20,153 nucleotides of DNA, taken from positions 2,591,208 to 2,611,360 of the forward strand of contig FN649751.1 in NCBI GenBank assembly GCA_000310025.1, given 5' to 3'. The stretch comes from Ectocarpus siliculosus. Its lineage: Eukaryota > Sar > Phaeophyceae > Ectocarpales > Ectocarpaceae. Under the pieces are notes generated by a model, which was given only the letters and a program-made list of their open reading frames with translations, did no database searches and was not told where the DNA came from. Made by a program: the position numbers and the translations under genes. Shown piece after piece: positions 1 to 20,153 of the stretch; positions within the stretch are counted from its first letter, which is position 1; each line of letters starts with the position of its first letter.

Positions 1-490
1 TGGGGGGGTTTAGGTTTTTTTTTTTTAGAAATTCTGCAAAAAGAATTTTTTTTTTGGGGAGGGAAACCCACAAAATGAGGGGGGTACAGGGAGTTGTTTT
101 TATTTATTTTTTTATGGGTGGTGGGGGGGATTTAGAAAACGGGGGGGGGGGCGGGGGAAAAAAAAAAAAAAAAAAAAAAAAAAGGGGCGGAAAAAAAAGT
201 TAAACGGGAGGGTTTCCAAAAATTTTGGGTTACTTCCACCTTTTGGGGGATTTAGGGGCCCCATTGGTTTTTTTTGGCTTAAATATTTTGGGGTAGGGCA
301 AAGATTTGTTGGGGGGGGGCCAAAATTTGTTAAATTAATTTGGGGGCCCCTTTTTTTGAAATTTAGGGGCAGGGAGGTTTAATGTTTTTTTGATATTTGG
401 GGGGCCCCATTGAGAAAATTTCAAAGGGGGCGGGTTGGCTTAGAAAGCCTTAAAGTTTTTGGGGGGGGTAAAAAACTTCCCCCCCCCCCC
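1..490. other. Low-quality contig end (probable base-calling artefact)
   Basis: This stretch consists of long single-base runs (T, G, A, C of 6-25 bases) joined by blurred, near-repetitive text, and it has no reading frame. It ends in a C run right beside the clean splice donor of the last visible COG4 exon. The pattern resembles the over-read tail of a chromatogram, not biological low-complexity DNA. The missing 3' exon of COG4 should lie in or beyond it, so nothing here should be interpreted biologically. A genuine homopolymer-rich intron is the alternative, but mixed runs of all four bases make that unlikely. Confidence 0.75.
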
Positions 491-506
491 CCCCCGCCCC
501 ACTCAC

Positions 507-1100
507 CAGCTCGTTGAGGTCACCGAACTCCATGTTTAGGCTGTCCGTCTCCATCAGCGCCGCCAGGCCTTGCTGCAGCGTTCGCACCTCTTTCCTCAAC
601 AACAGGGCGCCCCACTCGGTGAACCCCCCCCCCCCTCCCCCGGCGCCACCACCACCACCACCACCGTGCCCCTTGGCCCTGGCCGCCATCTCCACGCCCG
701 CAGCGACCCGGCTCGCCAAGCGCCGCACCAGTTCCTCGAACGGTTCCTGCAGCAGCGCAGCGCGGCAACCTCCATCCGCGTCCGCCCCCGCCCCACCACC
801 ACCACCACCACTCTCCCCGCTGTTGTCGCTGCCGGTCATCGCGCGCGTTGCCGCGTGGAGGACGCGGCGGGCGCCGGGGAGGTCGCCCGAACGTAGCTCG
901 TACTGGGCGGGGCCGAGGGCGTACGACGAGGAGCCGAAGGCGTTGGCGAGGGCGCTCGACACGGGGGGTGAGAGTGCTTCCAGGACGTCGTTGAGGCGGG
1001 AGTCCCGCAGGTCCTTGTAGGACCGGAGTATCCGCGCCACCTCGTCGAGCATGAGACCCACCAGAGGGTTGCTCGCTTCCAGGAACCGATTCAACGCGTC
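507..1100 (-). CDS. COG4: COG4 exon 10 (penultimate or last visible)
   Basis: 198 codons from DALNRFLEASNPLVGLML to GDLNEL, acceptor aaatgccag and donor gtgagt at 506-501. It holds LRDSRLNDVLEALSPPVSSA, two poly-Gly insertions absent from typical COG4, and WGALLLRKEVRTLQQGLAAL. The last is the counterpart of the 'GGLQ-D-E-R-L' helix that starts the COG4 C-terminal domain. The continuation is not readable. Confidence 0.85.
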
Positions 1101-3672: not shown

Positions 3673-3729
<57 letters not shown>

Positions 3730-6700
3730 CAGAGGGGAAAGATGCACAGAACAAAATGAACAAGGGAAACGGGAAGCGAACAAAAAAACGCAGACGCGTA
3801 CGATACCGTCAAAGGACGACAAAAAAAGTTCGTCTGCTCCCGTGGCGTGGTGGATCATCCCCTAGCCAGCCTCACCTCCGTTACCCTGTTGCACACGGCC
3901 ATGATCGCTTGCTCGCTTCGAGTCGACACCGAGCGCCGCAAGCTCTTGTGGACGAGGAAGCTGGCGTCCTCCACCATCGAGCTCACGTACGTCCCGTCCT
4001 GCACCTGGAAACGAACGGCGTGCAACATTACGGCAGTGTCGGGGACGGTTTGTTTACGTCTCTCTCTTTCTCTGTCTCTGTCTCTTGTCTGTCAGGATGC
4101 TGCCTTTGGTTTGCGCGCCTCTGTCTCGCGTACATTGTCGCAACATTCGAGAGGCCAAGGCTATGCCTCTTTGACCAAGGCTCCGAGAGACCAGTCTTAA
4201 GCGCAACAGCAATAGTGGCAAAACAACGTGGCAAAGTAGTTTTGTTGACAACGGAAACATTCAATATACAGCAGCCATCAGGGGCAGTGACAGAGGGCAG
4301 CCGGGGGCCGAGGCACACCCTCGGGTCAGCTGCATACCTACGAATTAAGGATAACTATTTCCACATCGTCATCGAATGCGTATTATGCTACATGCGCGTC
4401 TCGCACAAGCACAAACGTCATTGGCAAAAAAGACTAGCGTGGCGACAACAGCAACTGTCGCACGGAAGTATTTTTTAACGCCACGGCACCACATCACACC
4501 ACACCACACCACACCCCGTCTCGCCGTACCTCTATGGGCTCGGCTATCCGCATGGCTTCTTCGACGCTCCTGAGGCAGTACGCGTCTTCCAGTTGCACGT
4601 AGGCGCCTTCTATCAATCGCACCTTTTTCATTAGCATACACACAAGTGCAAGGAAAGATGGTCAAGCGGGTGGGTAGGGGCAAGTGGGCCAGCACTTGAC
4701 GCGCTTTGGCTGGTCGTCCGGTTCATCCCGCGTCACCAGTCCAGCTTTCCGGTATAAATGACTACGAGTGATTCACGTCAATCAAAATGTACCCCAGAGA
4801 GAAGGGGTCTCCCATCAAAATGGCGCATATGTTGGGGGCTCCTTAACAATACGACAAGGACAAGACTACGGCAGTCAACACCCGCACAATTACTTAAATC
4901 CTGTCGGCTACTACTATAGCACAGAAAAGGAGAAAAACAACAACAAGGATTCCTGTCTTGTCGATACATTTTACAAAAGGGAAACACAGCAAACCAACGT
5001 AGAGAGGTTTATTAGACTATCCAGAACCAGAAGGAGAAGAAGGTTTGAGCTCCCGGGTACAGCACTCTGTGCCGCGAACTTGTTTTCAGCAACAACAACA
5101 ACCACGGGTTCGCCTACCCCAACCCAGATACTATCCTGTTCGGAACGCCTGTTCGGTCAGAGCATCGCTTGGGGTGCGTGCGAGGGTCTTAGTAGACGCG
5201 AGCTTGCTGCTTGCGTGTGTCGTCATGGGACACCGCTGCCTCAATCCGGATGGGGTGAACGAAACGCTGCCTCTTACGCCCGAACGACGCTAAATAATCG
5301 TCACCTGCTCCTCGTCCCCTTGCCCCCCTCAACAAACATGCACCTGGCCGTTCCATCAAACATGCACACACCTGAGCGTAGAACTCGGACGACTGGTCCT
5401 CCGGCAGACCCAGGTCGTCAGCGACGAAGTCGAGGTATCTGTGGCAGTACTGCACGTCGAATCGGCAGTAATGAAGTAGCGGCGGGATTGTTGTCACGGC
5501 CAATTCAAGGGGTACGCACTGATCACGTATGGGCCTCGGGGTCCCGCCGAACCTGTAGTACGCGTTCATCTGCAGGAAAAGTTATTCTGCCAAAGCTTAT
5601 CTGTAACGTACAAAACCTCGGCGGGATGAACGCCGTCAACTAGGCTTCTCCTGTCTACCCGAGATGAGGTTGGTGTGCAGGTGGTATGCAGTGTCATGGG
5701 CTTTCGATGGTCGTTGGCTGTCCGCCCGCCCACCGACCCACCAACCCACCTGGCAGGCGAGCGCCATCTCATCGATTACAAAATCCATCCCTCGCGCGTC
5801 GAACAAGCCCTCCCCGCCGCCCTCTCCGCTGCCGCCGCCGCCGCCGCTGCCGCTGCCACCGCCACCGCCGCCGCGGCCGTTGCCGCTGGTAGGGGCCGAA
5901 GACGGGCGGCTCCCTCCACCGGCAGCCGCAGCTCGTTGCCCCGCGGTCCTTCCCGAAACCTGTGCTTGCCACTTGGGCAGGTCTGCGTCGTGCTGGAACC
6001 ACTCTAAAATCTTGACCGCCTAATCCGTATGTGTGTGCCCAGCAAATTACAAGCGTGAACAGGCGATTTCAAAAAGGGTGATTTTGAGCGGGCCGGGAGT
6101 CCCATGGATTTTATGTCCTGGAATTCTACGAAATAACAACCTGAACGCATGCATAGTCAGCAGTCGACTTGAACGCCAAAAAAGAAGCAATTCGACAGAG
6201 GCGAAAGGCAAAGGAGAAGCGGCGGGATGGGTGGGACCAGCAGGAGCCCCGATCAAACCGCCTTCAGTCTACTCGCAAGTAAGCTGATACTTCGCGCGCA
6301 TTGCAACGTCTCGACGCACGACGGCAGCTCTACCTCCTCCAAGCGCTGCAGTTGATACACGAGGAAACTTTGATCGAGTTGGCAAGTACTTGGATCACCA
6401 GAAAGCCAGGAGCGCAATTGATGTTTCCAGTCATTTCAGAAAAAAGACGTGGAATCCGTAATCCAGGTGGTACATCGTCGAAAGTCTGACACAAAAAAAA
6501 AATTAGACGTTTTCCAAACAGAACCACGAGTGGCCTACGATCCCTTCGTGAGCGTACCATACCCCCCCCCCCGAAAAAACACACCAGCCACAGCCGTCTA
6601 CCCGTCAAGTATCAACCTGAGTCTTGCTGTCCTTGTGCAGCAGTTCGGCGACCGGCTCCATCACCCCGTCCCCTAGGCTAGACTCAGCGAGCCGGACCAT

Positions 6701-8328
6701 GAGCTTGCTCCCTTCCCCCAAGACGGTCGCAAGAGCCGTGATGTGGGGGTGGGGGTCGGCAGCGGCCGCGGCACCGCCTTCCCCCCCTTCCGACGCGTCC
6801 CCCCCTCCTCCTCCCGCTGCTACCCCGCCGCCGCCGCCTCCGGAGGCGAGGCTCAGGCGGTACAAGGGCCGCAGCGAGGAGAGCTTCTTGACGGCGGCGT
6901 CGTTGGCCTGCTTTAGCCTATTTCGGAGGAATCTGGGTGGCAAGGACCGGGCGGAGAGATGGAAGCGTGTGCGGCGGCAAAGGAGGGTTCTTTTCCCAAC
7001 AAGTGCTTTCATCGTGTTGGTGGTGGAGATCTCTAGCCCTCCCGTTAGAGGGGTGTACTCATGGTAACGCATTGGTATGCCGTAGTCGTTAGACCATTGA
7101 CCTCGCACCCCCCACGATTCTAAGAGTGAGAAGGAGCGAGCTCTGGTCCAATGCCAGTTAGTGGACTGACAGAAGCCAATCAGGCGCGGTCAGTGCTAAG
7201 TAAAGAACGGACAGATCGAAGTCACGCCCCTCCACCCTCACCCGCCGTAGATATTGGCTGCGCCCTCGGCCTTGCCCAACAGGGCGGCGTGGTAGCTGAC
7301 CACCACCGTCTCCTCCTCGCCCAGCGTAGTGCCGCCCTCCCCGCCCATGCGGCCGCCGTCGTCATCGCGGTTCGCGTTAGGCCGGGAAAGCTTCTGGCAC
7401 AGCTTCCGCAGGCGGTCGAGAGTCACCTCTCCCGCCTTCCTGCGGCAGTCTTGCAGCATTTCGTCGTAGACCGCCGCGGACGGCGACGTCGAGGATGGTG
7501 GCGACGCTTGTGGCGGCGCTGCCGCCGACGGCGGTTTCACGGGATCCAGCTGCTGCTGTCTTTGACGCGTGGAATCCACGATCCTTTGCATCTCGTCGAC
7601 ACAGGCCTGCCATCGTTTTGTGTTGGAAGTTTTTTTTGTGTACCGGTCGTATTGTGTTTTTTTAGTGCAGTTCGAGGGTGGTGCACCAGGGATGGGACAT
7701 CGAGCATGTAATTGCTGCCCCAGTCCTTGCACTCCCGTGCTTTGGACTACACATATAACCAGTCTCGAGATCCGCCGTTTACAGCTCTACTGCAGTTGGT
7801 GGGTGCGAGGTGCCTCGACGCTCGAGATAGGAAGGCGTTCTTCGGCCTGCTGTTGTGGACAAACAAGGTCGTCGACAAGCACGTGCTTGCACTCGCTGGG
7901 CGGTGTCACATGTAGCGAGTTGAGATTTGTTCTGCGTGGCACGATTACATTCATAGGAAGGATGAACGCAAATGCGGTGAAATCGCCTCTAGCACTGCTG
8001 CTGCGGTATTACTATTAGGCGGACAGCTCAGAAGAACACTCTAAGCAGCACGGCGGCGAGTCCACAGCGCAAAATCATCTGCCCGAACGCAGTACCAAAA
8101 GTATAGCATGACACGTAGTATTGTAGCGGTTGCCCTTACCACCATGCCCCCAGTCTTGCCCTCGGCAAGCTGCAGGTAAAACTGCTCGAACCTCTCTTCG
8201 AAAGTTGCCTCTAACAGGCCGCCGCTGCCGTCCTGCGCATGTTCCCCAGGCGCTGCCGGGCTCTCTTGCAGCACGTCCGTATCATTCGAGGGCGCGCCAT
8301 TTCCCTCTGCATCGAAAGGCGCCTGCAT
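507..8328 (-). CDS. COG4: Conserved oligomeric Golgi complex subunit 4 (3'-partial, 10 exons)
   Basis: COG4 is a lobe A subunit of the peripheral Golgi COG tether, which captures retrograde intra-Golgi vesicles with SNAREs, SM proteins and Rabs. Exons on the complement strand: 8140-8328, 7242-7606, 6617-6932, 5750-6019, 5372-5449, 4530-4622, 3876-4004, 2469-2623, 1841-2006 and 507-1100. All nine junctions keep phase and together give about 785 residues. Colinear COG4 family blocks, recalled from human and plant proteins, are visible: VVVSYHAALLGKAEGA, VAELLHKDSKTQ, MDFVIDEMALACQ, LIEGAYVQLEDAYCL, SSMVEDASFLVHKSLRRSV, DDFSTALAK, VGINSVHVALSSVSAIQ and LLLRKEVRTLQQGLAAL. Gly/Ala-rich insertions sit between blocks. 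The family N-terminal coiled coil (roughly 100 or more residues) was not found, and the C-terminal 45-50 residues are lost in the low-quality end. The ATG at 8328-8326 lies directly before a possible acceptor (cag at 8325-8323), so exon 1 may instead be internal. Introns are 300-1,252 bp; those not listed separately hold nothing recognised. Confidence 0.87.
1101..2468 (-). other. COG4: COG4 introns 8 and 9 (around exon 9)
   Basis: Intron 9 (1101-1840) and intron 8 (2007-2468) flank exon 9. They contain C-rich and G-rich runs (for example about 1656-1665 and 2266-2292) but no supported gene, repeat family or RNA. Open frames on either strand here have no coding bias and cross exon borders. Confidence 0.6.
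1841..2006 (-). CDS. COG4: COG4 exon 9
   Basis: Acceptor tggcaaccgcag, phase 2 entry. Encodes ALEEAADEHSGPRG, a Gly-rich acidic stretch and VEGAMVGINSVHVALSSVSAIQ, the counterpart of the COG4 'LNN-(V/M)-V--E-I--L' segment. Donor gtacac, phase 0. Confidence 0.83.
2469..2623 (-). CDS. COG4: COG4 exon 8
   Basis: Acceptor ccgcccgcag, start ILDPHAPEPSFFGGLATEAD, then a Gly/Glu/Asp-rich insertion and DDFSTALA. The donor gtgggt at 2468 (phase 2) joins exon 9 to give STALAKALEEAADEHS, which matches the COG4 'ND(Y/F)..AL...I' helix. A neighbouring gt at 2464 would break the frame. Confidence 0.8.
2706..2808 (+). repeat. Diverged direct repeat, copy A
   Basis: Starts TAGCATCGACCGCGC and continues through CAGTCTCAGTGCGG and AAACGATCTGGGA. 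It aligns over about 100 bp, with small gaps, with copy B at 3478-3580. By eye about three quarters of the bases agree. Its function is unknown; it could be one end of a small non-autonomous element. Confidence 0.6.
3206..3292 (+). repeat. Inverted repeat, left arm (87 bp)
   Basis: The reverse complement is found at 3370-3456 with a single mismatch (position 3219), that is 86 of 87 bases. The 77-bp spacer contains a smaller nested inverted pair, AAGCCTT (3320-3326) and AAGGCTT (3350-3356). Transcribed within the COG4 intron, it would fold into a long hairpin. No clear target-site duplication was found. Confidence 0.93.
3370..3456 (-). repeat. Inverted repeat, right arm (87 bp)
   Basis: Partner of the arm at 3206-3292. 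It ends 21 bp before direct-repeat copy B. The very high arm identity points to a recent origin, or to homogenisation of the arms. Confidence 0.93.
3478..3580 (+). repeat. Diverged direct repeat, copy B
   Basis: Starts TAGCATCGACCGCGCC and contains CAGTCTCAGCGCGG and AAACGCCATGATCCGGGA; see copy A. A shorter, weaker match of the first 35 or so bases lies at 7163-7199 on the minus strand. Confidence 0.6.
3675..3726 (+). repeat. (AG)26 microsatellite
   Basis: An uninterrupted 52-bp AG tract inside COG4 intron 7. In the COG4 transcript it reads as a CU-rich polypyrimidine tract. The length is likely polymorphic. Confidence 0.97.
3876..4004 (-). CDS. COG4: COG4 exon 7
   Basis: 43 codons from VQDGTYVSSMVEDASFLV to QAIMAVCNRVTE, phase 0 at both ends, acceptor gtttccag and donor gtgagg. 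The 'SSMV-D--F-V-K---R--S' pattern is the most diagnostic COG4 block in the window. Confidence 0.88.
4005..4529 (-). other. COG4: COG4 intron 6
   Basis: 525 bp. It contains a CACAC/CACAT-rich patch at 4490-4514 and a CTCT-rich patch near 4062-4085. No gene or RNA was recognised. Confidence 0.6.
4530..4622 (-). CDS. COG4: COG4 exon 6
   Basis: 31 codons reading VRLIEGAYVQLEDAYCL then RSVEEAMRIAEPIE. This matches the COG4 'LIG.Y..ME.YF.RE.V.KA' block very closely. Donor gtacgg. The acceptor is an unusual aaaaag with the pyrimidine tract set further upstream, so the exact 5' edge is slightly uncertain. Confidence 0.83.
4623..5371 (-). other. COG4: COG4 intron 5
   Basis: 749 bp. A plus-strand open frame (4768-5643) crosses it, exon 5 and intron 4. 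It has no domain, no coding bias and runs antisense to the gene, so it is not called. Nothing else was recognised. Confidence 0.6.
5372..5449 (-). CDS. COG4: COG4 exon 5 (short)
   Basis: 26 codons, YCHRYLDFVADDLGL then PEDQSSEFYAQ, phase 0 at both ends, acceptor gacgtgcag and donor gtgtgt. Joined to exon 4 it aligns with COG4 without a gap. A second good acceptor 120 bp upstream (tcctgcag before ATGAACGC, 5569) would add 40 residues in the same frame. Homology favours the short form, but the longer one could be an alternative isoform. Confidence 0.72.
5750..6019 (-). CDS. COG4: COG4 exon 4
   Basis: Acceptor acggattag; starts AVKILEWFQHDADLPKW, matching the COG4 helix that follows the 'L..ECD' block. 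A disordered Gly/Ser/Ala insertion of about 50 residues follows (plus-strand GCC/CCG-rich DNA at 5817-5885). The exon ends GMDFVIDEMALACQ at a gtgggt donor, phase 0. No start codon is needed; the frame is open through 90 codons. Confidence 0.82.
6020..6616 (-). other. COG4: COG4 intron 3
   Basis: 597 bp with no recognised repeat, RNA or gene. Short A, C and T runs occur near 6490-6580. Confidence 0.6.
6617..6932 (-). CDS. COG4: COG4 exon 3
   Basis: Starts in phase 2 after ttgccacccag; the split codon gives Gly, reading on as GFLRNRLKQANDAAVKKL. A Gly/Ala-rich insertion follows, then ITALATVLGEGSKLMVRLAE and VMEPVAELLHKDSKTQ. Donor gttgat, phase 0. The order and spacing of the helices match COG4. 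Confidence 0.85.
7050..7106 (-). repeat. Short intronic repeat, copy 1
   Basis: On the minus strand it reads GCGAGGTCAATGGTCTAACG, then ACTACGGCAT, ending with CATGAGTACACCCC. It lies 117 nt upstream of COG4 exon 3 in the sense orientation. It shares the core GCGAGGYCAATGGTCT...CGGCAT with copies at 12084 and 12837. The segment GTC-AATGGTCTAAC-GAC resembles a tRNA D-arm, so a tRNA-derived origin is possible but unproven. Confidence 0.65.
7242..7606 (-). CDS. COG4: COG4 exon 2
   Basis: Acceptor gatggcag and donor gtgagg (phase 2). It encodes the helices ACVDEMQRIVDSTRQRQQQ and VYDEMLQDCRRKAGEVTLDR, then a Gly-rich loop, then the conserved VVVSYHAALLGKAEGAANIYG block that precedes the 'FL..R' helix of exon 3. 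A Pro/Ala/Ser linker of about 20 residues separates the first two helices. Confidence 0.85.
7607..8139 (-). other. COG4: COG4 intron 1
   Basis: 533 bp between exons 1 and 2, with T-rich patches near 7628-7665. No gene, RNA or repeat was recognised. Confidence 0.6.
8140..8328 (-). CDS. COG4: COG4 exon 1 (start uncertain)
   Basis: Begins MQAPFDAEGNG and ends EGKTGGMV at a gtaagg donor, phase 0. The helix FEERFEQFYLQLAEGK lines up without gaps with the COG4 segment before the conserved 'cross-over' helix. The first 40 residues are acidic, Ser/Pro-rich and probably disordered. If the cag at 8325-8323 is an acceptor, the exon starts at 8322 and a 5' exon exists upstream. An open frame ending at a gtaaaa donor near 8462 is compatible in phase, but it has no ATG and no COG4 resemblance. 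Confidence 0.7.
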
Positions 8329-8734
8329 GGGACACGGCCTGGCTATGCTGCACCAGCCAGCTGAACCACGGAGCCAGTCCGCAACAAGAACAAGCACACC
8401 AGACAGCAGAACCGGAAGGGGCTTCTGTGGCTACCGTACCCGCCGTACGATTTTACGGAGCCTCCCTCCACCGCTCTTTGGGCGTGGTGGTTCCTACTGC
8501 TGTGTGCAAACTCTGCAGCGCTTTCCCCCCTCAGCTCGGCAAGCGTAGCCCCCCTCTCCACCCCGGGGCGAGGCAGGTGATGTGTCGGAGCCGTCAGGGA
8601 TCCAGGCGATTGTGGGCTAACACCGGTTTCAGCGGTTTAGGGCGCGACCCGCACACGAAGCAGCAGCTCGTTTTGACGAGAAAAGGAGGAGAGAGCTACT
8701 AGCGAGGGCAGCAGCAGCGCCGGTGGTGGCTGCC
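8329..8734. promoter_or_regulatory. Divergent intergenic spacer / probable bidirectional promoter
   Basis: About 406 bp separate the two predicted start codons, which face away from each other. The promoters and 5' untranslated regions of both genes should therefore lie here, unless COG4 has an undetected upstream exon. No TATA box or other specific motif was convincing. The bases before the plus-strand start (ggctgccATG) are a plausible initiation context. Call based on position only. Confidence 0.5.
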
Positions 8735-8864
8735 ATGTGGAACTTCTTCGGGAAGGGGTACAAGGAGGCCGCCGAGGAGGACGAGGACAATGATTTGTCG
8801 CTCGGGACCGGCCCCGTAGACATGACAACGCTGGACATAACGTACATCACACATCGTTTACTTG
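8735..8864 (+). CDS. PTP-C2-PHD gene exon 1
   Basis: Starts MWNFFGKGYKEAAEEDEDND and ends LDITYITHRLL at donor gtgagt, phase 1. 'D-TYIT-R(L/I)' is the first strand of tensin-type phosphatase domains. ATG at 8735 was chosen because it has a good context and the domain begins about 33 residues later. Confidence 0.83.
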
Positions 8865-8879
8865 GTGAGTGCTTTCAGC

Positions 8880-8917
<38 letters not shown>

Positions 8918-11900
8918 GGTCTTCTGCAAACAGCTCCTGCTGGGTTGGCGGAAAAGTGCGCGTGTGTGTGCGTGTCCCCTTTTTTTCGCGCTCTCTCGTT
9001 GCCGAGCGCTGGCGTGTGGCACATCGTGTAGGCCAACAAGGCGACCCCCAACGCCAGCATGTTTTTCCTCCTGGCAGCCCGTGTTTGAGGTGGCACACCA
9101 GTAGCAGGTGTGTCTGGTTTTGGTTGACGCTCATAAAAAATTGATTACAGAACGGACTTTTTACGGCCCCTTCTCTTATGCCGAGAGGGCCCATCATCCA
9201 TGCGTCGACCGACAGCTGCTGCCTCCCTCTCGCACACAGGAACTCCGTTTCCTACCGCGTGCACCCCACCTCTCGAGGCTTTATCTGGTTGGTGTTTGAG
9301 ATTATCCCCCTTTTGGTAGTGTTCATCATGGCACCATCACCCCCTACTTGTCTACAGCAGTTGCCCCTGTTCTCGCCACAGGCTGTGAACCAACGGCAAG
9401 CTGTGTGCGAGTGAGAAGGTCCCAAGGCTGACAAAACACAGCAGACGCGCGCTGCCCTAAACCAGCCAAGAGTCGCGGCCGTTCGTGTGTTGGTTCAGTG
9501 ACGGCGGCCACCGCTGCACCACCCCCACCAGGGCTGCTAGTGGGGTACTTCAGCACTCGCACATTATGTTCGTGCAGACTCGGACGGGCTACAAACACAG
9601 CAACAGCCAGCATTTTTTTACTCTTCATCCCTATGTGTCTGGCCCTCTCTCGTCACACTTGGGGGGCATGTGTCCCGCCTGTGTGGGTGTGTTGTCACAC
9701 GTGCATAGCTGCGAAGGTCTGGTTGCGTCTGCGTGTCCGGTTCTCCAGAGGGCATTTTATTTAGCACTGCTGTTAGACGCAGAGGTTCGACACAAAAGAA
9801 AGCGCACGTTTGACACATTAGCCGGCAGGCAGGCAGAGGTCTGTTCACCGCTGTGTACGTACCGCAACGGCGGGGTGCGGTGCAACTGCTGCTTCTGTGT
9901 TGCGACCCTGGCCCGTGGGGTAACACGGGTCTCTAGTCTTTTGCGGGTGTTTCATTCACCCGGGGGCGTCTCGGGAGGACGCTGAGAGGCCGAACTCAAA
10001 CGCCAGCTCGTACACACTCGCCAAGCGCTTGGCATTTTCATTTGTAATTTCAGCAGCAGCTACTTGTACGGTACTCGCATCCGAGAGCGAATTTCTTTTC
10101 CACGCCACATGAAGCTTTTCAACGGCAGAGGGTGGGGGTCACGCGCCCCTGTATTTGATCTGATTGGTTTGACCTCACTAACCGCATGAAGAAATAGCTC
10201 CTGTAACGAGATTGGTGATCTAGCGTTCCCACGGCACGAGCATTTAGAGTATTTTGTCGTGAAACACGGACAAACTCGAGCTGTGCTACAGGGTCCAAGA
10301 GGGACGGGGGAATTCTGCTTTGAACTTTGGAGTGTAAACGACATACATGTCCATCGGCTTTCCCTATACAAGTATTATTATGATGTGTCGTTGCTAGTTG
10401 AGCCACGGCCTGACGACCTCGGAACAGGAAGGGCGCTTATTTCCGCCCTGCTTTCCTTTCTTTGTTTCTTTGTTTCCTTCTCTCTCTAAGAACCATACAG
10501 ATTTATCTCCATCCGTGGATAGATACTGCTGACGTGTGACTCATATATTGACATTTTTCATGTTTGTTGGGATGGCCTGCGATATAATTCGGAAAAATCG
10601 CTGGTTTGCCTGGATAAATGCGGAATTGGAGGTACTAGACACGGGAGTTTGTTTTTGTGTAGAGACTGACTCCAAGGGCCCACGAATCGAGTTTCCTGTC
10701 TGTTCAGGGAGGGTTTAAGCGGGTGCAACGTCATCGAACTAAAACTCCGCCGTAAAGCGAGCCTCGCTTTTAGTCGTCTTGAGTCTCACGTGTTCAGCTC
10801 CGTGTGAAACTGTTTTTGTTGTGTAGACATGATTGGCCGACGTGCCGATTCTTGTCGTTGGCTCTAACCCTACAATAAAAATAGACGTAATTTTTTGTTG
10901 AAATTGTTTTGCTGCTGGGGTTGCGTGTGTGGTTGCTCCCCACAGCAGTTGTGATCTAAATTTTGGTTTAGTAGCGTACGTCATTTCCATGTACGTACGT
11001 CCTGGACGCAACCGAACAACGGCGCAGGGCTGTAGTCTTGCATCGATGCTCTCTTCCTCTTGCCGCTTGCGCCATTCTTCTGGCCTAACCTCTATACAAC
11101 ATAGGGTTATGTGGCATAGGGTTGAAGCGAGTGATGTTGTAGAGAGGTGTAGGTTGCCTGCGTAGCATCTCCTCGCACACGTGACGATGCGCCTCCCTCT
11201 TCCCACGCACCCTCTCGTTTCTTGTTGGCGGTACGTTCTTGTGTCATCTTTTCCGTATCGAATTGTGTTCTTTGACAAATATTACTATATAACAGCGATC
11301 GGCTGCCCGGTGGACGGCCCGAGCGACCGAGATGCGAACCGCAACAACGTCGACGACCTCTCCAACTGGTTGGTCAACGACCACAAGGGGCATTTCCTGG
11401 TCTGGAACATCTCCGACCACCGCTCGAACAACGGCGGAGGGCGCGGGGGCGGCGGCGGGAGGCAGCAGGCGGCCGGCACGCAGGTGTCTCGGAAGCTTCA
11501 CCAGCGGCTGCAGGGGCAGGTCCTGGACATCCCGTGGGGCAGCCGGAACCGGCGTTGCTACGTGCCGTCCATCAGACATCTCCTGCGCGTCTGCTACTCG
11601 ATCAAGGTGAGCGAACGAAGGGGGCGTGGGAGCTGCCGTAGATGCCGTCCGGATTGTGTGAGTGATGCACACTACATGCCCTTGTCAGGGAGAAGAACTT
11701 TATTTTGTTGGCTTTGCTTGACGCGTGATGAGCTACATAGCGTGCATTTTTTTTTTGCTGGTTTCGTTGGCAGCACGGCGTAGTGGCACGGCTGCCTTCA
11801 GATCGTAAGCAGCGGCATTGCTCGCGCGCGACTACAGCCAAGTGGGCCTTTTTTTTTTCCCCGTCTCACTCGCGCAGAAACCGATGCTCCTACGGTACTT

Positions 11901-14345
11901 GCTGCCTCTGCCTTTCCGGCGTGTTCTGGCGCTTTCCTCCCGTCAGACTGGCGCGGTAACCCCGAGGTTGCTCGACGTGAAATCGCTTCGCGCAGCACTG
12001 GTGTTTTGAAGATTAACCTGGCGGCTGAATCCATTAGACACACTCATGTCCACGCACTCCACACAAACCCCTCTTGTAGTGTTGCGAGGCCAATGGTCTG
12101 TAGCGACTACGGCATGCGTTTACGTGAGAGCCCCCTCCCTCCCCCCCTCGAAAACCCAATATCCGGGGCGGCCATTTGATTGCGACAGGGCTGGCTCGAC
12201 CTGGATCCGGAGAACATGGCTGCCGTGTTCTGCGCGAACGGAAAGGCGAGGACGTCGGTGCTCTTGGCGTGTTATCTGCGGTTCGAGGGGGAGGAGTCCA
12301 CCGCCCTCGAGGCGTATCGTCGAGTGTGGGCGAAGCGAGACCCGGAGCAGAAGCCCGAGCAGGTATAGTTTACAACCCCAAAGTGCCCTTTCTTTTTCTT
12401 TTGCTCTTTCTCGTCGGCGTTTTTTTCGATTTTTGGAGCAGAAATCGAGCAAAGTAGACCAAATACGTTGTTATTGCTAGTTCTCGTCAATTTTTTTCGA
12501 TGTTTCGATCAAAGCAGGAATCCAAGGGGGTGCTGGTGGAAAGCCATTTTTTTATTCTTTTTCGCTCCATTTTTTGGCGTTTTTGTTTTCGAGCAAGACC
12601 CAAAAATGCAGGAACCCGACCGCAGGTGAGCCGAACGGCGCAAAGGTCGTTGAGAGCTGTGTATCGTATGGTGTCGTTTATCACCACAGCAGAATGCCCA
12701 CGGGCCCAGCGGCTGGGCGTTACACCTGGAGCGAGTCTTGGCGTGTGTTAGGTGCATATGTGTCGGTGTTATTTTCATTATTTTCTCGCGAAAGACGGCA
12801 TGTTGTTGGGTGAGTGCTCGATTGGGGCCAGGGGAGGCGAGGCCAATGGTCTAACTTATTCGGCATGCAAAAACATGAATACCCCCCCCCGATTTGTGAT
12901 CGCCTCTCCCCCCTTGCACCCATACGTACTCCAGGTTATCCTCCACACGCCCCGGAGCCTCTTCGCCCTCTTCGACAACTTCGACTGCTGCATACGGCTG
13001 GGCCGGCCGCCGCGGGGAGGGGCCGGGGGCGGCCTGTTGGTTGGGGTGGCGTTGAATGGCCTGCCTCTTGCGGAGCCCCCGGTGCTCGAGGTGTACGGAC
13101 CGACGCAGCTGCTGTACTCGAGCACCCAGGAAGAAGAGGACAGTCACGTGGTAGGTGCTGGTGTTTAGTCCGTGACGTGGCGTCTTGCGGTAGTTTTGAG
13201 GCTAACATCGTGGTGGTGGTGGTAGGTGGTCTAGCAGCGGTGAAGTTGCAGCTGGTGTGGCAAATCTCAGGCTCTACTCTGCACACGTTGGAGTCGCCTT
13301 CCTTGACCCCTTTGCCCCGCCACCCACGCCTCGCGGTTTTATCAACAACAACAAAAAAATCGCCACGGTAAACAGCTGTGGAACGAAGATCAAGGGTTCT
13401 TCAAGGTCAACAAGCCGCTCACGGGGGACTTCGTAGTAATCGCGCGGTTCAAGGGTACCGACGGGGCCGCAGAGACGGGGCCGGAGGGGGTGTTATTCCG
13501 ATACTGCAACCACACGTGCTTCTTGCCGCAGGGGGAGCAGGTCGTTCTCCGGAAGTCTGAGGTGCGTGGTGTGGCCAGCGCAAAGCGCCCGTCTCGATTT
13601 TCTTGCCGTGGGTTTTGACAGCTTAGAGGCGTTCTTCCCTCACGGGGGTGGTATTGTGTATGTATCCGGGTGTGTCGATAGACCTCCCTTCTTATTTTTT
13701 CTCTCCTTGCGAGCGCGCCGGGCACGTGTACAATATCGAAGGAGAGCAAGGCGGAAAAGTCGTTCCATACCGCGGTAGGACTGCTGCTGTAGACTCTCCT
13801 GTCTTTGTGCTCGTGAGAGCCGCTGGCGTGCTGATTCGAGCGTTTGCGCGAGCTCCCGAACGCGTAGGCATTGCGAAGCCCTCAATATTTGTTGGCACCA
13901 CACTGGAAGAATGCTTTTTATCCTTTTTTCTGCCTGTACATGGCAGTCAAGTCCCCGGCCCCCGGCCTTGCTTGCTGTCGAACCGTTGCCTCTCATACCC
14001 ATGCTCCCGCGATGTCGCGTGCGATGTCGTCCTTTGCTCGCGGCGAACGCGCGCGTCAGAACCCCCAAAAAAGTGCGGACGTAAGCGGGACCTCCATGTG
14101 TCGACAAAAAGACACCCGCCCCCCGGTTCTTAAAGACGAGAAATACCTGCGTGCCCCATGTGCCATGCGTCTGTTTTCTTTTGACAGGTGGACGTGATGC
14201 CGAGCTACCGGGACCAGATCCCGGACGATGTATTCAGCGTGTCCTTGGTCCTTGTGCCTGAAGAAGAAGAGGACGCCGGCTCGAGCTTCTCCTTCCAGGA
14301 GCAGGACCAGGTCAAGGTCGGCCCCGCCGCTACCCAGCAAGGTAC

Positions 14346-14380
<35 letters not shown>

Positions 14381-17300
14381 TGGGGTGCGTTCGTGGATTT
14401 CTTGGTGGGGTTTTGTTCGTGGTGTTGGGGATGATGACCAGCCCTGTGTGTGTGTGTGCGTCCGAGGTGTGTGTGTGTAGCTGTGAACGGGGTTTTGCTC
14501 CGTGGCTTGGACGTTGCGCTCGCGTGGTTTACGCCTGTTTTCGTCTAGTTTTTTTTTCTCGCGGGCAATACGCAACAGCACGCACGCTCCGCCGTGCGAC
14601 AGAACCAGCGTGGATTTATTCCTCACGAGTTCGCGCGGTGTCCCCCCCTCCCCCCGCTGTCTCTCTCCCGGCTTTCGGCACTCGCTAGGCAAGCAAGCAC
14701 CCCCTGTGCGTGTTGGGGTGTAGTTTCGGCCGCAGTGCTCGCCTACTCCCTCCCCGCGTTGTCTTTGCTTGTGTTTGTTCAATCCTCACTTCTCTTCTCT
14801 GCTTTTGTTCACTTTGTCTCCCTTTGTCGACACGGGTGGACGTGTTGGTTAACACAGGCCTGGCGGACCTCAGCTCGTTCCACTTCGTGACCCCCTTGCT
14901 CCCTCGGCTCGACAAGCTCCTGGGGCGGGGTTTCCCTCCCGAGGCGTCGACGCTGGCGCTGCAGCTCGCCAACAACGATCTGAGCGCGGCGATTACGATG
15001 ATGAAGGAGAGCCCGCTGCAGGACCTCATGACGTACCGCCTGGCGCTCTCGCCGAGGTCCTCGGAAGGTTTTTCGCCGAACCGAGGGCTTCGGGCCAAGT
15101 CCATCTCGGTGGTGTCGCCGGGGTCGATGCTCGAGTCGGATCAGGTTCGGACACCGCACGCCGTCGTTGCTTTTTGTTGAGTGACCGGTGGAGGTCGACG
15201 CGCTTGCGAAAAGCAGTAGTAGTAGCGCTACGTAAGCGTCGGCGACTATGCTCACAAGTAGGTGATGGTGCTGCGCGAACGTGCCGCGCTCTTTAAGAAG
15301 CCCTCGTGTGCCTTGGATGCAAGCGTGTTGTCAGCGGTGTATCGTGTGGTCGCATGCTCGACTCGGAATGTGTGCGTGTAGCACCTGCAAAGTACTGTGC
15401 CAGCCAAGAGACTTCGTCCGACCAAAGCCAACTATAATATGTTTTTTCACGCACCAAGTCTTGCCTTCTTTCCTGCGAATACCCCTTTCCGCAAACGCAA
15501 CCGTACCGTCACGTGCAGGGAAACCTGTCGCTCGACCACTACGAGGACTCCCAGCACAGCAGAGACTCGCTCGATGGCCCCGGCGGCGGGATCGGAGCGT
15601 TTAGGCGTGACCACCAGCAGCCTGGCCATTAGGGCGTCGTCCGGCTTCCCTCGCGAGAATTCCGGCGGGATCTCGAGCAGCAACGCGGCTCCCTGGGGCT
15701 CGGGGATGGGGGGCGGGGGCAAGGCAGACGCGGGCGGTGCCGGGGGCGGCCAGCATTACGTGGTTCCCGGCGGTATTTGGTTGCCGACGCCCAGAACGCA
15801 GGGCACGAGTAGCTTTTCTCCGAGCAGCAGCGCCGGCGGCGGCGGGGGCGGAGGGGCGGGGGGCGGCGGCGGGGGCAGCGTTGCGGCGCGGGAGAGAGAA
15901 GAGGGCGGGGCCGAGAGCAGAAGCAGCGCTGCCAACGGCGGGTTCTTTGGTGGCAACGAGCCGCACTGTGCGCGATGTAGCAACGCGGATGCCGGCGGGC
16001 AAGCGCAGGTAAGCGATGGGGGCGAGCTCAGAAGGTTGGATGGGTACTATTGTGCCTCGGGGTTGTCGACCGTATTGTGCTTTTTGTTGTCGAGAGTCAA
16101 GGTCTCCCTCGGTGTATACGTTTGTTGTAAGCGCGACGTATGGAGCCCTCGTTCCTCTTGGACACCCATGCCCATGCGATGATCTCCTCCGATATGCTCA
16201 ACTTACACTGTTTTCTATCTCTCTTGCCGCTTCCCCCTCCTCTCTCTGTCCAGGTGATCACATGCAGCGAATGCAGCCAAGGGTTCCACACCTTCTGCGT
16301 GGGGGAAAAGCGGATACCCTACGCGCTGTTCCCGCCGGAGCAGCGCGTTCTCCGGGACGCCTTCGTCGCCGAGCACATCGGCGCAAGGTGGCAGTGCTCC
16401 AAGTGCCAGACCCAGGCGTCCCAGGCGACCATGTCCCCGTTCCAGGCGGCCGGTAACGACTTGTACACGCCCCCGTACAGAGATTTCGGCTCGCGGTCTT
16501 CGTCCACAAGCAAGCTGCTGGTTCTGCCGGGAGTCAAGGAGGACGGCGGTGGGACGGGGTCTTCCTCTTCCGTCGTCTCCCTGTCGAGGGGGGTGAGCGG
16601 CGACGGGGGCGACTTCGACGCAGACCTCGCGGACGTTTCGCCGTCCAAGGGACCCGTCGAGCCGTCGTCTGCGCCCCTGCCGGCGCCTTGCTGGTCGAGG
16701 TCGGAGTCGAAAGATGCGGTGGTGGTGGAGCCCTCGTCTGCGCCCTCCTGGCTGCTGGCGCCGGGGACGGGTCCCGCGACGCCCCGGAAAGGGAAGGCGG
16801 TTGCCGAGGCAGGGGGAGGCGAAGAGGTTGGGGGTGAAGAGAAGGGTGACGAAGAGGCAGATGGTCCTGAGGCCGGCGGCAGAGCGCAAGAGGCGGCGAC
16901 AGAAGCCGGTGCTGCGAAAGGCGAGGCAGGAGGAGGAGGAGGGAAGCCCGACGGTGCGGAGGATGGCACGGGCGACGACGCCGAGGCAGCGCCGCCGGTT
17001 GAGCGGGAGGGGGGTGAGGGTGAGGGTGAGGTGGTGGCAGTAGACGCGGAAGACAGGGAGGAGTCCGAGATGAGCGCCGATAGTTTGGACAACTTCAAGA
17101 ACGAGCAGCGAGCGGCGGAACTAGCCGTCACAGGTGGCGTTCGCAAAAGCGCAGAGGGAGGCGAGGCGGAGGAAGTCGTTTCTCCTTCCGCCGCCGCCGC
17201 CGCCGCGTCCGCGAGCGATGACGGGCCGGAGTTGTCGACGATAGCCGGGGAGGAGGCCTCGGAATCGGCGGTCGAACCGCCGAAAGAGCTCGGCACAGAG

Positions 17301-18968
17301 GCGCCGGCCGTCGAAGGGGGAGGTGACGGCGAGGAAGCGGGGATTGTAGTGGGGGGGGGTAGCGACGGGGGGGTAGAAGCTGGGGGCGAAAGGGAAGCCC
17401 AGCCCCGAGGAGAGGGGCACTCGGCGGAGGGGTTGGCGGCTGCTGCTCTGCCTGACCTTGTAGCCAAACCCGCGGATTTGGCGGAGTTAGCTCGGGTGCT
17501 GGGGCTGACGGCTGTGGTTACCGTAGCTCCCGTCGGCACTCAAACCGACGATGGTGGTGCCTCCGCGGCAGCAGAAGGGCTGGAAGCGACACCCGCTGCT
17601 GCTTCTGCTGCTGCTGCTGTTGCTGCTTCTGCTGTTGGCGTTGAAGGAGAAGAGGCGGGCAACGAACCAGGTGTCAGTTCTCCGGCTGCTGAGGTTCTGA
17701 CGGGACCCGAAGAGCTGGTGGAGGACGCAGCTCCCGAGAGCGTGGAAGGCGAGGAGGAGTCCCGGAAAGAGTCCGTCGATGTTCCGGTCGCAGCCCCTGG
17801 GTCGGAGGGTCTGGTGGACGACACCGCCGCTGAAAGCCAACCACCGGGAGCAGAGGCCGGTGAAAAAGAATCGGGCGTCGCTGCTATCCCTTCCTACCCT
17901 TCCCCCGGGTCGGGGAGACGGAGGGATTCGTACGATATGGGTGGGATCGCGGCGGGGCAAAGGGTTGTCGGAGAGGCCGCTCTGACTCCCGAAGGGGTCG
18001 AAGAAGATTCTGGAGGGGAGGAGAAGGTGGTCGTGGAAGGAGCTACCTTCTACTCCACTCAGGAGCTCGGAGCCGAGCTCGCCGAGGGAGAAAATAATCG
18101 CGACGATTCGTTCGCCAGCGCCGAGGAGGAGGATGAAGCAGCAGAGGCCGTAGCGGCAGCAACAGCTATCTCCGACGAGGCCGGTATTTTGGAGCACGAC
18201 GGCGATGCCGGATCGCTGTCAGCGCGTCCCCCGCCGATGGCGCCGGTGTCGCAGGCACGGGAAGGAGAGCGGCAGGGGGAGGGGGAGGAGGAGGACGAGG
18301 CAGAAGGCAGCGGCGGCAGCACGTCAGGCAGACGATCGCGACGGCCGCCCCGCCCTGCCGCCATCGCTCTCTCTTCCCACGATGACGACGAACAATATGG
18401 GCGGCAACAACCAGGCGCTCTCTTGCTCGATTTTCCCAGGTCTCCCGCGTCCAGCCCCGCCGCCGGCGGGCGCAGCGCGGCGGGCCCGTCGTCTCTGCCG
18501 TCGCAGCAGTCGCTCTCCTCCCCCGGCGGGGTCGGTGGCTTCCCGGCGGCCTCCTCTCCCGGCAGGATCAGTCCGCCGAGATCGCCGTCCCCGAGCCGCG
18601 TCGGCTTCTCGGCCTCCCTACGGGCCAGGACCCCTCCGCGGTCCCCCCGCCGCCACCCGCCCGTCGGGCAAGAGCCGGGCGACCGGCTGCTGGAGACGAG
18701 TAAAGGCCCCGTCTGGAGCCCGGCCCAGTCCCCGAGGAGAAAGTCGGTGGCGAGGATTGGGCAGACGACGCCCGAACAGGTAGGCGCCGGCGGGAAGCAA
18801 ACACCCCGGGGGGAGAGAGAGCGGGAGGGCGGGCGCGGCGGCTCGCGTAGAGAGTCTTCCAGCTCGAAGTCGTCCTTGCGCCGGTCTTCGTCGTCTTCGG
18901 TGGTAACACGGCCGCTGCTGAGCGACGGGGAAGACGGCGGTGGGAGCGCCGGCAGAGGGGGAAGCAGG

Positions 18969-19006
<38 letters not shown>

Positions 19007-20153
19007 GAGGCGCGGGAGCGGCGCGTCGAGCCTGCTGAGCAGCGTCGTCAGCAACGCGGCCGACGACGACTCTATCCCTTCGAGCGGCAGCGGGGCGGCG
19101 TCGGGGGGCAAGCCCAAGCTCCGGCGGGTGGAGAGCCTCAACAACTTGAGGGAGGATGGGGAAGAGTACGGCGGCAAGTCGGAATCGAGGGACAGGTCGT
19201 TCACCGCCGCCAACATCGACCCTGACGCCTTGGGCCAAGACCTTGCGGCCGTGGTGACCCACTTGAAGGAGGTATGTGTACCCTCCTACCAGTCCCGACA
19301 ATCTTGCTTGAATTGCGTCTAATGTATTCCGCACCGCCGTAGGAGATGTTCCGCAACTCGGAAGTCTCTCTCTGGCCCAAACAACGGATTACAGCAGGTG
19401 TTTCAGTACCTGGGGCATAACCGGTTGGTAGATACGAAACACGCGGCGGGTGCTGTTGGAACTACCATTAACCATTCATTGCTTCGTTCCCCTGTGTTTT
19501 TCATGTGTGGATGGGCACTCTCGTGTGAAATACAAATGGGCCCCGGACATGACGGGCACTTTAGAACAGAAGAGTCTCGAGGCGGAAGACAGAACTCCAT
19601 TCCACACATGTTGACGTTTTCCTCTTGAGCGTGTCCACGGAGCTCCCTCCAAAGGCGCAGTTCTACGCCGTCGAATTCCCACGCGAGCCTTGTTTACCGA
19701 TGCTTTGTCGCTCGGTTTCGTTTTTCTGCCGCCGCTTGCCAGGACGGCCTCACGCCCGAGAAATTTCAGAAATCGCTCCAGAGAAATCACCACAGGACGC
19801 CGTCGATGCCGTCGCCGAGCACCAGCTCTGCTGGCGCGACTCTGGAACCCGAGCCCGCCCCCGCCAAAGGTATGCGGCAGCAGCAGCAGCAGCATCGCCC
19901 GCCGCTCTGGGGGGTCTTGGGCTGGATCGGCGGCGTTGCGAAGGTGGTGACCGGTCAGGGCGGTCGTGGGCACCATGGGGAGGCCGAGCGGGCGGGCGGC
20001 ACGGCCACGGCGGCGGACGCCGCCGAAGAAGCAGGGGAGGCGGAGCCGAAGGTTCTCCCGGCTACGGAGGAGGACGCAGCAACGGCGGTGGCGGCGGCGG
20101 CCCGGCCGAAGATCCTCCCAGCGAGCGACGAACCATATTCCCCTATGATAATG
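8735..20153 (+). CDS. Tensin-type phosphatase-C2 / UBA-like / PHD-finger protein (3'-partial, 11 exons)
   Basis: Exons: 8735-8864, 11296-11606, 12189-12362, 12935-13150, 13376-13561, 14188-14341, 14858-15144, 15519-16008, 16254-19271, 19343-19405 and 19743-20153 (runs off the window). About 1,813 residues are visible. Order: tensin-type PTP domain (about 33-220) with DITYITHRLL, the auxilin-like NNVDDLSNWL block and CX5R loop FCANGKART (Cys162, Arg168); tensin-type C2 (about 230-370); UBA-like domain (about 404-439, LLGRGF...NNDLSAAITMM); Gly/Ser linker; C4HC3 PHD-like finger (about 635-700); about 950 disordered residues; and an Ala/Glu-rich tail. The PTP-C2 pair is that of auxilin, GAK and PTEN, enzymes or clathrin-uncoating cofactors; no J domain or kinase is seen in the window. 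Splice phases agree throughout, except for a +1 frame change inside exon 8. The function is not known: a lipid or protein phosphatase, a trafficking factor, or a chromatin reader are all open. Confidence 0.78.
8881..8916 (+). repeat. (CTG)12 microsatellite
   Basis: An uninterrupted triplet tract 17 nt inside intron 1, close to the 5' splice site. In the transcript it is a CUG repeat. Confidence 0.97.
11085..11150 (+). repeat. Imperfect hairpin in intron 1
   Basis: CCTCTATACAACAT (from 11089) pairs with ATGTTGTAGAGAGG (to 11148) with one mismatch. CATAGGGTT is repeated inside the loop. Significance unknown. Confidence 0.5.
11296..11606 (+). CDS. PTP-C2-PHD gene exon 2
   Basis: Phase 1 entry after atataacag. 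Reads AIGCPVDGPSDRDANRNNVD then DLSNWLVNDHKGHFLVWNIS. This matches auxilin-type domains ('FP...N.(V/I)DD.R.FL...H..HY.VYNLS') closely. A Gly-rich insertion follows, and then YVPSIRHLLRVCYSIK before donor gtgagc. Confidence 0.87.
11607..12188 (+). other. Intron 2 of PTP-C2-PHD gene
   Basis: 582 bp. It contains one copy of the short intronic repeat (12084-12135); nothing else was recognised. Confidence 0.7.
12084..12135 (+). repeat. Short intronic repeat, copy 2
   Basis: Reads GCGAGGCCAATGGTCTGTAG, then CGACTACGGCATGCG, then ACGTGAGAGCCCCC. It lies 53 nt upstream of exon 3, in sense orientation to the gene. See the copy at 7050-7106. Confidence 0.65.
12189..12362 (+). CDS. PTP-C2-PHD gene exon 3 (catalytic loop)
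   Basis: 58 codons, phase 0 at both ends. GWLDLDPENMAAVFCANGKA continues as RTSVLLACYLRF, giving the CX5R signature of protein tyrosine/lipid phosphatases. The usual His before Cys is Phe, but Cys162, Gly165, Lys166, Arg168 and Thr169 are kept. Auxilins keep HC but commonly lose the Arg context, so this copy looks more catalysis-like. Activity is inference. Confidence 0.88.
12363..12934 (+). other. Intron 3 of PTP-C2-PHD gene
   Basis: 572 bp, T-rich at 12380-12600 and with one short intronic repeat copy near its 3' end. Donor gtatag, acceptor gtactccag. Confidence 0.7.
12837..12887 (+). repeat. Short intronic repeat, copy 3
   Basis: Reads GCGAGGCCAATGGTCTAACT, then TATTCGGCATGC, then CATGAATACCCCCC. 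It is in sense orientation, 47 nt upstream of exon 4. The D-arm-like stem of copy 1 is not kept here. Confidence 0.65.
12935..13150 (+). CDS. PTP-C2-PHD gene exon 4
   Basis: 72 codons, phase 0 at both ends. HTPRSLFALFDNFD is the last PTP helix. After a Gly-rich loop, PPVLEVYGPTQLLYSST is the first part of the tensin-type C2 domain ('P...V..G...IYS'). Donor gtaggt. Confidence 0.85.
13376..13561 (+). CDS. PTP-C2-PHD gene exon 5 (C2 core)
   Basis: 62 codons, LWNEDQGFFKVNKPLTGDFV then VIARFKGTDG, and later LFRYCNHTCFLPQGEQVVLR. These are the middle strands of the tensin-type C2 ('L.GD(V/F).(V/I)...', '...F(H/N)T.F(I/L)P'). Donor gtgcgt. Confidence 0.86.
14188..14341 (+). CDS. PTP-C2-PHD gene exon 6
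   Basis: VDVMPSYRDQIPDDVFSVSL followed by VLVPEEEED is the last C2 strand, equivalent to 'P..YP..F.V.L.V' in auxilin. A short acidic/Gln linker follows. Acceptor ttttgacag; donor gtacgt, phase 1. Confidence 0.86.
14348..14377 (+). repeat. (AG)15 microsatellite
   Basis: Begins immediately after the gtacgt donor of intron 6, so the purine tract abuts the 5' splice site. Confidence 0.97.
14858..15144 (+). CDS. PTP-C2-PHD gene exon 7 (UBA-like)
   Basis: Phase 1 entry. LLPRLDKLLGRGFPPEAST followed by LALQLANNDLSAAITMM has the three-helix UBA pattern (L..MGF...A..AL....D...A...L), with Arg-Gly replacing the usual Met-Gly. UBA domains bind ubiquitin in other proteins. The Ser-rich tail ends LESDQ at a weak donor gttcgg, phase 0. 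Confidence 0.8.
15519..16008 (+). CDS. PTP-C2-PHD gene exon 8 (contains +1 frame change)
   Basis: Phase 0 entry reads GNLSLDHYEDSQHSRDSLDG with high GC3, but this frame meets TAG at 15630-15632. From about 15604 the next frame (+1) has the good codon use and reads GVTTSSLAIRASSGFPREN to a Gly-rich linker and FFGGNEPHCARCSNADAGG, the first Cys pair of the PHD finger, ending in phase 0 at gtaagc. The exon is 490 nt, one base too many for an open frame. An indel error, a true mutation, or +1 recoding at TTTAGGC (15600-15606) would each explain it. Confidence 0.72.
16254..19271 (+). CDS. PTP-C2-PHD gene exon 9 (PHD end and long disordered region)
   Basis: 1,006 codons without interruption. It opens VITCSECSQGFHTFCVG and, after about 32 residues, WQCSKC, completing a C4HC3 PHD-type finger begun in exon 8. 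The next 600 residues are Glu/Ala/Gly/Asp-rich and acidic. The last 300 are Ser/Pro/Arg-rich with SPRRKS- and SSSS-type clusters, a poly-Gly run and a closing helix DALGQDLAAVVTHLKE. The disordered part should be nuclear or cytosolic; phosphorylation is plausible but not shown. Donor gtatgt, phase 0. Confidence 0.88.
18969..19004 (+). repeat. (GGC)12 in-frame triplet repeat
   Basis: Encodes a run of glycines within the Ser/Arg-rich part of exon 9. Being in frame, length changes would not disrupt the protein. Confidence 0.92.
19343..19405 (+). CDS. PTP-C2-PHD gene exon 10 (3' edge tentative)
   Basis: After a 71-bp intron (acceptor caccgccgtag), it reads EMFRNSEVSLWPKQRITAG. The donor gtacct at 19406 keeps phase 0 with exon 11. 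The stronger-looking gtgttt at 19398 would put exon 11 out of frame. A gt at 19364 is a third, weaker option. Confidence 0.5.
19743..20153 (+). CDS. PTP-C2-PHD gene exon 11 (runs off window)
   Basis: Acceptor ccgcttgccag; the frame is open for 137 codons to the window end. Starts DGLTPEKFQKSLQRNHHRTP, includes a short Gln run, the hydrophobic stretch LWGVLGWIGGVAKVV and an Ala/Glu-rich tail with the near-repeat PKVLPATEED / PKILPASDEP. The hydrophobic stretch is too short to call a membrane segment with confidence. No stop codon is seen, so the gene continues. Confidence 0.72.

Follow-up and report, generated by a model that had tools for sequence, protein, structure and literature searches.

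A gene on the forward strand of Ectocarpus siliculosus contig FN649751.1 is best read, at a probability of about 0.5, as one transcription unit encoding a membrane scaffold. It starts at position 8735 of a 20,153-nucleotide stretch (contig positions 2,591,208 to 2,611,360; hereafter the window), and its predicted product combines a PTEN-type pseudophosphatase module (a protein tyrosine phosphatase domain, PTP, followed by a C2 domain), a UBA-like segment, a PHD finger, a long linker and a putative C-terminal effector. We see the domains, the UBA tentatively, and a substitution in the PTP P-loop directly in the sequence. If the two halves of the gene are joined, a catalytically inactive PTP-C2 module would bind phosphoinositide membranes and target the protein; the UBA-like helical bundle would bind a partner, probably ubiquitin; and the PHD-type zinc finger would bind a histone tail or another peptide. 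A long flexible linker would then lead to the C-terminal part, which may be an effector, most likely FH1-FH2 by analogy with PTEN-domain formins.

An earlier note on this DNA, made from the letters alone, had proposed PTP, C2, UBA and PHD domains in one protein. Three of these domains were recovered, the PTP by phmmer and the C2 and PHD by profiles, and the UBA came up weakly, below the Pfam cut-off and with UBA chains among its Protein Data Bank (PDB) matches. If the model is true, the joining of PTP-C2 to UBA and PHD is a further lineage-specific reuse of a PTEN-type module, and membrane lipid recognition would be tied to ubiquitin or zinc-finger recognition.

A PTEN-type domain with an altered P-loop

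By its sequence, the N-terminal domain is a PTP of the PTEN/tensin/auxilin type. Its closest PDB sequences by phmmer are auxilin (E 5.4e-12), PTEN (7.5e-11) and voltage-sensing phosphatases (3.4e-10). A Pfam scan of the 523 residues that end at the first stop codon in exon 8 gave two other families of dual-specificity-type phosphatases, both weakly (E 0.12 and 0.13). In PTEN, H123, C124 and R130 are the essential residues. The P-loop found here, FCANGKART, retains the Cys, Gly and Arg and has Phe in place of the catalytic His, so that it reads FCANGKAR where an active PTEN-type phosphatase has HCxxGxxR. Since the loop is without its catalytic His, the module is probably a pseudophosphatase, and the dephosphorylation role suggested by the earlier note is unlikely.

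How particular is this change? We searched the whole genome (189 Mb in 492 contigs) with the 523-aa protein and obtained 12 matches, eight of them the gene's own exons and four elsewhere: one on contig C9, two on C11 and one on C5. Two of these four, the C5 match and the second on C11, showed no P-loop and were set aside as PTP comparators. The comparison therefore covers three PTP loci with a readable P-loop, and both of the others keep HC...R (HCLTGRGRTS on C9, HCKAGKGRAG on C11), which argues that the loss of His is particular to this copy. The C9 paralog (L006, L027), with 52% identity in the 50 residues about the P-loop, is a candidate active tensin-type phosphatase. It shares PTP-C2 with the present gene and differs by its intact loop and an acidic tail; UBA or PHD domains were not noticed in it by eye, without a Pfam scan. 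Its C2 domain reaches 31.6 bits against PTEN_C2, and the tail, as judged by eye, ends in DNLDELEGYLESLAK. The C11 locus (L024) has a canonical PTEN-like P-loop.

The genome search found no second locus for the UBA or PHD parts. The PHD peptide had one match elsewhere, on C6 (E 0.24), and the last-exon peptide had three (E 0.2-0.9). Scans of viral and prokaryote contigs with the first 456 aa gave 4 and 21 pattern matches, and none was confirmed as a relative.

C2 domain, UBA-like segment and PHD finger

The case for a C2 domain after the PTP is sound but not strong. As an isolated 120-aa segment, the sequence matches PTEN_C2 with an E-value of 1.3e-5, over positions 27-131 of the 133 in the profile. 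Exon-by-exon genome scans did not list PTEN_C2 for this segment, and when the segment by itself was run against the PDB with phmmer, the list came to just three chains, all unrelated, with E near 1.

Exon 7 holds a probable UBA domain, an assignment that we regard as tentative. A phmmer search of the PDB at E<=10 listed six chains (YBL047C, CBL-B three times, Mud1 and p62; E 0.23-1.6). Mud1 is the only one named as a UBA protein in the PDB listing; the chains of YBL047C, CBL-B and p62 we take to be UBA domains as well. Against a small profile the segment scored 22.3 bits and none of 5000 shuffles scored as high, a control that is biased in that the profile was made from three of the best-matching PDB chains.

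The PHD finger spans the junction of exons 8 and 9. Read in the frame that we call B below, it has all eight zinc ligands of the C4HC3 type and a Trp before the last Cys pair, and by these features it is a complete finger. It scores 27.4 bits in Pfam as a 72-aa piece, above the cut-off of 24, and 22.1 bits, 1.9 below that cut-off, within a 317-aa piece. None of 20,000 shuffles of a 230-aa stretch fitted the C4HC3 pattern, which had been composed after inspection of the sequence. The best PDB matches are WSTF (0.0018) and MLL3 (0.0019). PHD fingers that read H3K4me3 usually carry a Trp two residues before the zinc-binding His; because a Gly stands there in this finger, K4me3 reading is unlikely. 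The PHD finger is the one feature behind the chromatin role envisaged in the earlier note, and we consider that role not supported.

The disordered region of about 950 residues noted earlier is present: about 954 low-complexity residues follow the PHD finger in exon 9. Motifs were counted on 972 aa, comprising these residues and 18 from a provisional exon later discarded. This tail has no clathrin box, DPF/DPW, NPF, run of five prolines or LC3-interacting region, and an excess of RxxS (18, versus 7.6 in shuffles) and of SP/TP (22 versus 12.3).

Several points weigh against the model. Profile searches, which the earlier note had named as a check, bore out the PHD finger as a 72-aa piece and fell short for two other domains: the exon 7 segment scores 14.2 bits against a Pfam UBA cut-off of 22.4, and the C2 segment, at 25.3 bits, lies 1.8 bits below the PTEN_C2 cut-off of 27.1 and is not listed in the Pfam scan of the whole 523-aa protein. 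The change from His to Phe in the P-loop need not remove all activity. With acceptor 15519, which codon usage favours, the frame stops at 15630. A genome search for FH2, run exon by exon so that weak matches can escape, found none near the gene and none on this contig, and of the 48 J-domain matches listed, not one is close by.

The frame break in exon 8

Are the two halves of this gene joined in one protein? Exons 1 to 7 (8735-15144) form a single open frame with GT-AG introns. With donor 15145 and the CAG acceptor 15519, this frame (A) continues for 37 codons to the TAG at 15630-15632, giving the 523-aa protein, and the PHD finger reads in frame B, not in frame A. The statement that exon phases link the two halves thus does not hold for acceptor 15519; an in-frame join needs a site like 15565, or an insertion or deletion (indel). 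Through acceptor 15565, exon 7 continues into frame B with no stop codon between, for a protein that is at least 1777 aa long at the window end, so that the canonical GT-AG pair 15145/15565 bridges the frames without an indel.

Codon usage was compared under three trainings, and each figure below is given per training or as their range. Frame A scores above B in 15519-15578 and B above A in 15579-15638; beyond 15639 the two score alike, so the contrast comes from about 100 bases. The best frame change lies at 15600, with near-equal positions from 15570 to 15603, and it beats frame B throughout by 12 to 21 nats and frame A to the stop followed by B by 1.8 to 7.6 nats. Summed to 15780, an indel scores 24.6, 28.4 and 36.0 nats, stop-then-B 22.9, 21.0 and 31.7, and the 15565 acceptor 11.6, 19.1 and 23.8. 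These values suit a one-base assembly error or allele in exon 8, with a true frame continuous from 15519, which would be another route to the scaffold. We regard it as a serious contender, if at somewhat less than even odds: the frame change surpasses both of the other paths as well as the 15565 acceptor (the last by 9 to 13 nats), and the stretch is rich in G+C; however, the 15145/15565 pair links the frames with no indel at all, and the codon test draws on about 100 bases, with A and B alike past 15639. Frame A reads TTT AGG C at 15600-15606, the place at which a +1 shift into frame B suits codon usage better. The Ty1-type +1 slip site is CUU AGG C, and the likeness is probably due to chance.

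Acceptor 15519 leading into a TAG would also fit a pair of genes, one for the 523-aa PTP-C2-UBA protein, which stops at 15632, and one for a PHD protein that starts from about the ATG at 15574 in frame B. Codon usage lends this some weight, as it favours A in 15519-15578 and gives A-to-stop-then-B a lead of 2 to 11 nats over the 15565 acceptor. However, the two coding regions would share about 59 nt of the same strand, with no intergenic room, the frame A coding signal falls to 0 to 1 nats in 15579-15623, ahead of the stop, and exon 8 has a donor of its own, with the PHD finger tying it to exon 9. We consider two genes unlikely.

The splice scores say less than they first seem to. The matrix was built from nine donors and nine acceptors of the gene under study, including the sites being judged, and it favoured 15519 (sum 9.5) over 15565 (5.0). 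Once donor 15145 and acceptor 15519 are removed from the training, 15519 drops to -5.0, below 15565 (-0.7), 15563 (1.3) and 15560 (1.9). Since the matrix was trained on it and leaving it out reverses the order, the preference for 15519 is not independent, and the remaining support for this acceptor is codon usage and its CAG, the textbook acceptor form. In-frame joins from two donors inside exon 7, 15068 and 15057, score slightly above 15145/15565. A third donor in exon 7, 15135, was rejected as poor (-3.6 and -3.4). Mini-introns of the GT-AG or GC-AG type leading from A to B within exon 8 are unconvincing: those with GT donors lose frame A from 15527 or 15530, and its larger part is preserved only where the donor is GC.

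What speaks for one transcription unit is the far end of exon 8. A consensus-like donor (CAG|GTAAGC) stands there and the PHD finger crosses the exon 8/9 junction in frame B; because of these two features we favour a single unit, and some transcripts at least would splice exon 8 onward instead of ending it with the TAG. The earlier claim of one protein depends on an unproven splice or indel: that both halves lie in one protein is likely but unproven.

The missing 3' end and relation to known proteins

The gene had been taken to extend to 20153; the frame of the last exon is still open at that point and runs into N. Sequence resumes, as sampled, roughly 50-55 kb past the window with a Sel1-repeat-like gene on the other strand (by eye). 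For the part lost in N, an FH1-FH2 effector is possible, and among the specific readings a C-terminal FH2 lying there comes first, because stramenopile PTEN-formins share the signature of a lost His and a kept Arg. In the available text of PMC2386819, the PTEN domains of stramenopile formins (diatoms, Phytophthora) have lost the His of HCxxGxxR and kept the Arg, from which its authors infer no catalysis, whereas those of plant class II and prasinophyte formins have lost the Arg. The present protein is like the stramenopile formins in its PTEN-related domain and P-loop; it differs in that FH1-FH2 is not seen, its C-terminus lying in N, and in its UBA and PHD, which the portion of that article at hand does not describe for them.

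A PTEN-type formin with FH1-FH2 hidden in the N run would be a narrower form of the scaffold and compatible with it; as a full account it is tentative and, taken by itself, somewhat improbable. The published His-lost, Arg-kept signature matches, as far as the text at hand goes, and a supplement legend of the same article lists PHD among the domains that occur with FH2 in just one species (PMC2386819). The open frame running into N leaves room for it. All 10 FH2 matches listed in the genome search fall at two loci, on C17 and C483, and the genome PTP search found no PTEN-type match on these contigs, so that no assembled PTEN-FH2 formin was found as a competitor. However, a Pfam scan found no FH2 in the readable last exon and the tail lacks a five-proline run; the His-to-Phe change could be independent, the lineage may lack PTEN-type formins, and the exon-by-exon search can miss weak FH2 matches. 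The loci on C17 (L003) and C483 (L004/L005) are formin genes, each with FH2 exons and with FH1-like stretches rich in proline.

Other formins give an idea of what such a module may do. According to passages of a review (PMC3817587), PtdIns(3,5)P2 is a ligand of the PTEN domain in moss For2A, and rice FH5 depends on its own PTEN domain for targeting to the chloroplast envelope; apicomplexan Formin-2 has PTEN-C2-like domains, according to part of another report (PMC6688858). Plant class II formins (PMC2386819, PMC3817587) share with the present protein a PTEN-like module with an eroded catalytic site, in their case with membrane targeting, and differ by the loss of Arg and the presence of FH2. 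PTEN-type modules have been taken up as inactive membrane adaptors in several lineages, formins among them. Our search of open-licence papers, mostly at listing level, did not find the order PTP-C2-UBA-PHD, nor any entry that could be recognised as the present protein; PTEN-domain formins, stramenopile ones included, are a precedent that the earlier note did not name.

Tensins and auxilins likewise reuse PTEN-type modules as inactive membrane adaptors. Tensins combine a pseudophosphatase PTP-C2 with a long disordered region and differ in the SH2-PTB C-terminus, not seen here, where UBA and PHD occur instead. Auxilin and GAK have PTP-C2 and a long linker, and of the PDB sequences auxilin comes nearest to the PTP; they differ in their J domain and clathrin motifs, not seen here with the C-terminus in N. 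An auxilin-like uncoating factor, with a J domain in the missing part, could be imagined from that top match. We judge it very improbable: in the alignment auxilin keeps the His and is without the Arg, the reverse of FCANGKART, the 48 J-domain matches listed include nothing close to the gene, and the 972-aa tail lacks clathrin box, DPF/DPW and NPF motifs, a weak point as shuffles expect fewer than one of each. As for plant class II formins, we know of none with UBA or PHD.

A bolder extension, which we hold to be decidedly unlikely, would give this multicellular alga a pseudophosphatase formin or scaffold, encoded by a single-copy gene and reading phosphoinositides, ubiquitin and a histone or other peptide in one chain, with alternative exon 8 acceptors switching between a short PTP-C2-UBA form (stop at 15630) and a long form bearing the PHD and effector.

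Gene model and neighbouring sequence

The features of the gene are collected in Table 1. The junction of exon 9 with the last readable exon is in phase 0, with frame scores of 38.1 for the frame joined and 14.6 and -9.9 for the others. A provisional exon at 19343-19397 was discarded because it has next to no coding signal (-1.6) and the phase 0 junction at 19743 leads straight into the best-scoring frame.

Table 1. Exons and domain segments of the gene, in window positions
Feature	Position	Strand	Content
Exon 1	8735..8864	+	ATG, acidic N-terminus, first PTP strand (DITYITHRLL); PDB phmmer alignments begin at residue 31-32
Exon 2	11296..11606	+	PTP core with Gly-rich insert
Exon 3	12189..12362	+	PTP P-loop FCANGKART at 12228-12254 (translation and alignments)
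Exon 4	12935..13150	+	End of PTP; C2 starts from about 13076
Exon 5	13376..13561	+	C2 domain (PTEN_C2 match)
Exon 6	14188..14341	+	C2 ends at about 14253; acidic linker
Exon 7	14858..15144	+	UBA-like segment, about 14887-15012, and linker
Exon 8	15519..16008	+	Frame A ends at TAG 15630-15632; frame B has no stop and encodes a linker and the first PHD zinc pair
PHD finger, first part	15967..16008	+	CARC...
PHD finger, second part	16254..16405	+	CSEC...H..C...WQCSKC
Remainder of exon 9	16406..19271	+	Low-complexity sequence of about 954 residues, with much G, A, S, E and P
Last readable exon	19743..20153	+	Open at window end; phase 0 join to exon 9

Upstream of the gene, the minus strand of the window (450-8430) has long open pieces at 450-1127, 1790-2194, 5189-5581, 6605-7189 and 7238-7786. 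None of the five has a Pfam match at E<=10; together they are probably an intron-rich gene. Two simple repeats were seen by eye within the gene, a CTG repeat at 8882-8917, shortly past the exon 1 donor, and GA repeats at 14349-14376, shortly past the exon 6 donor.

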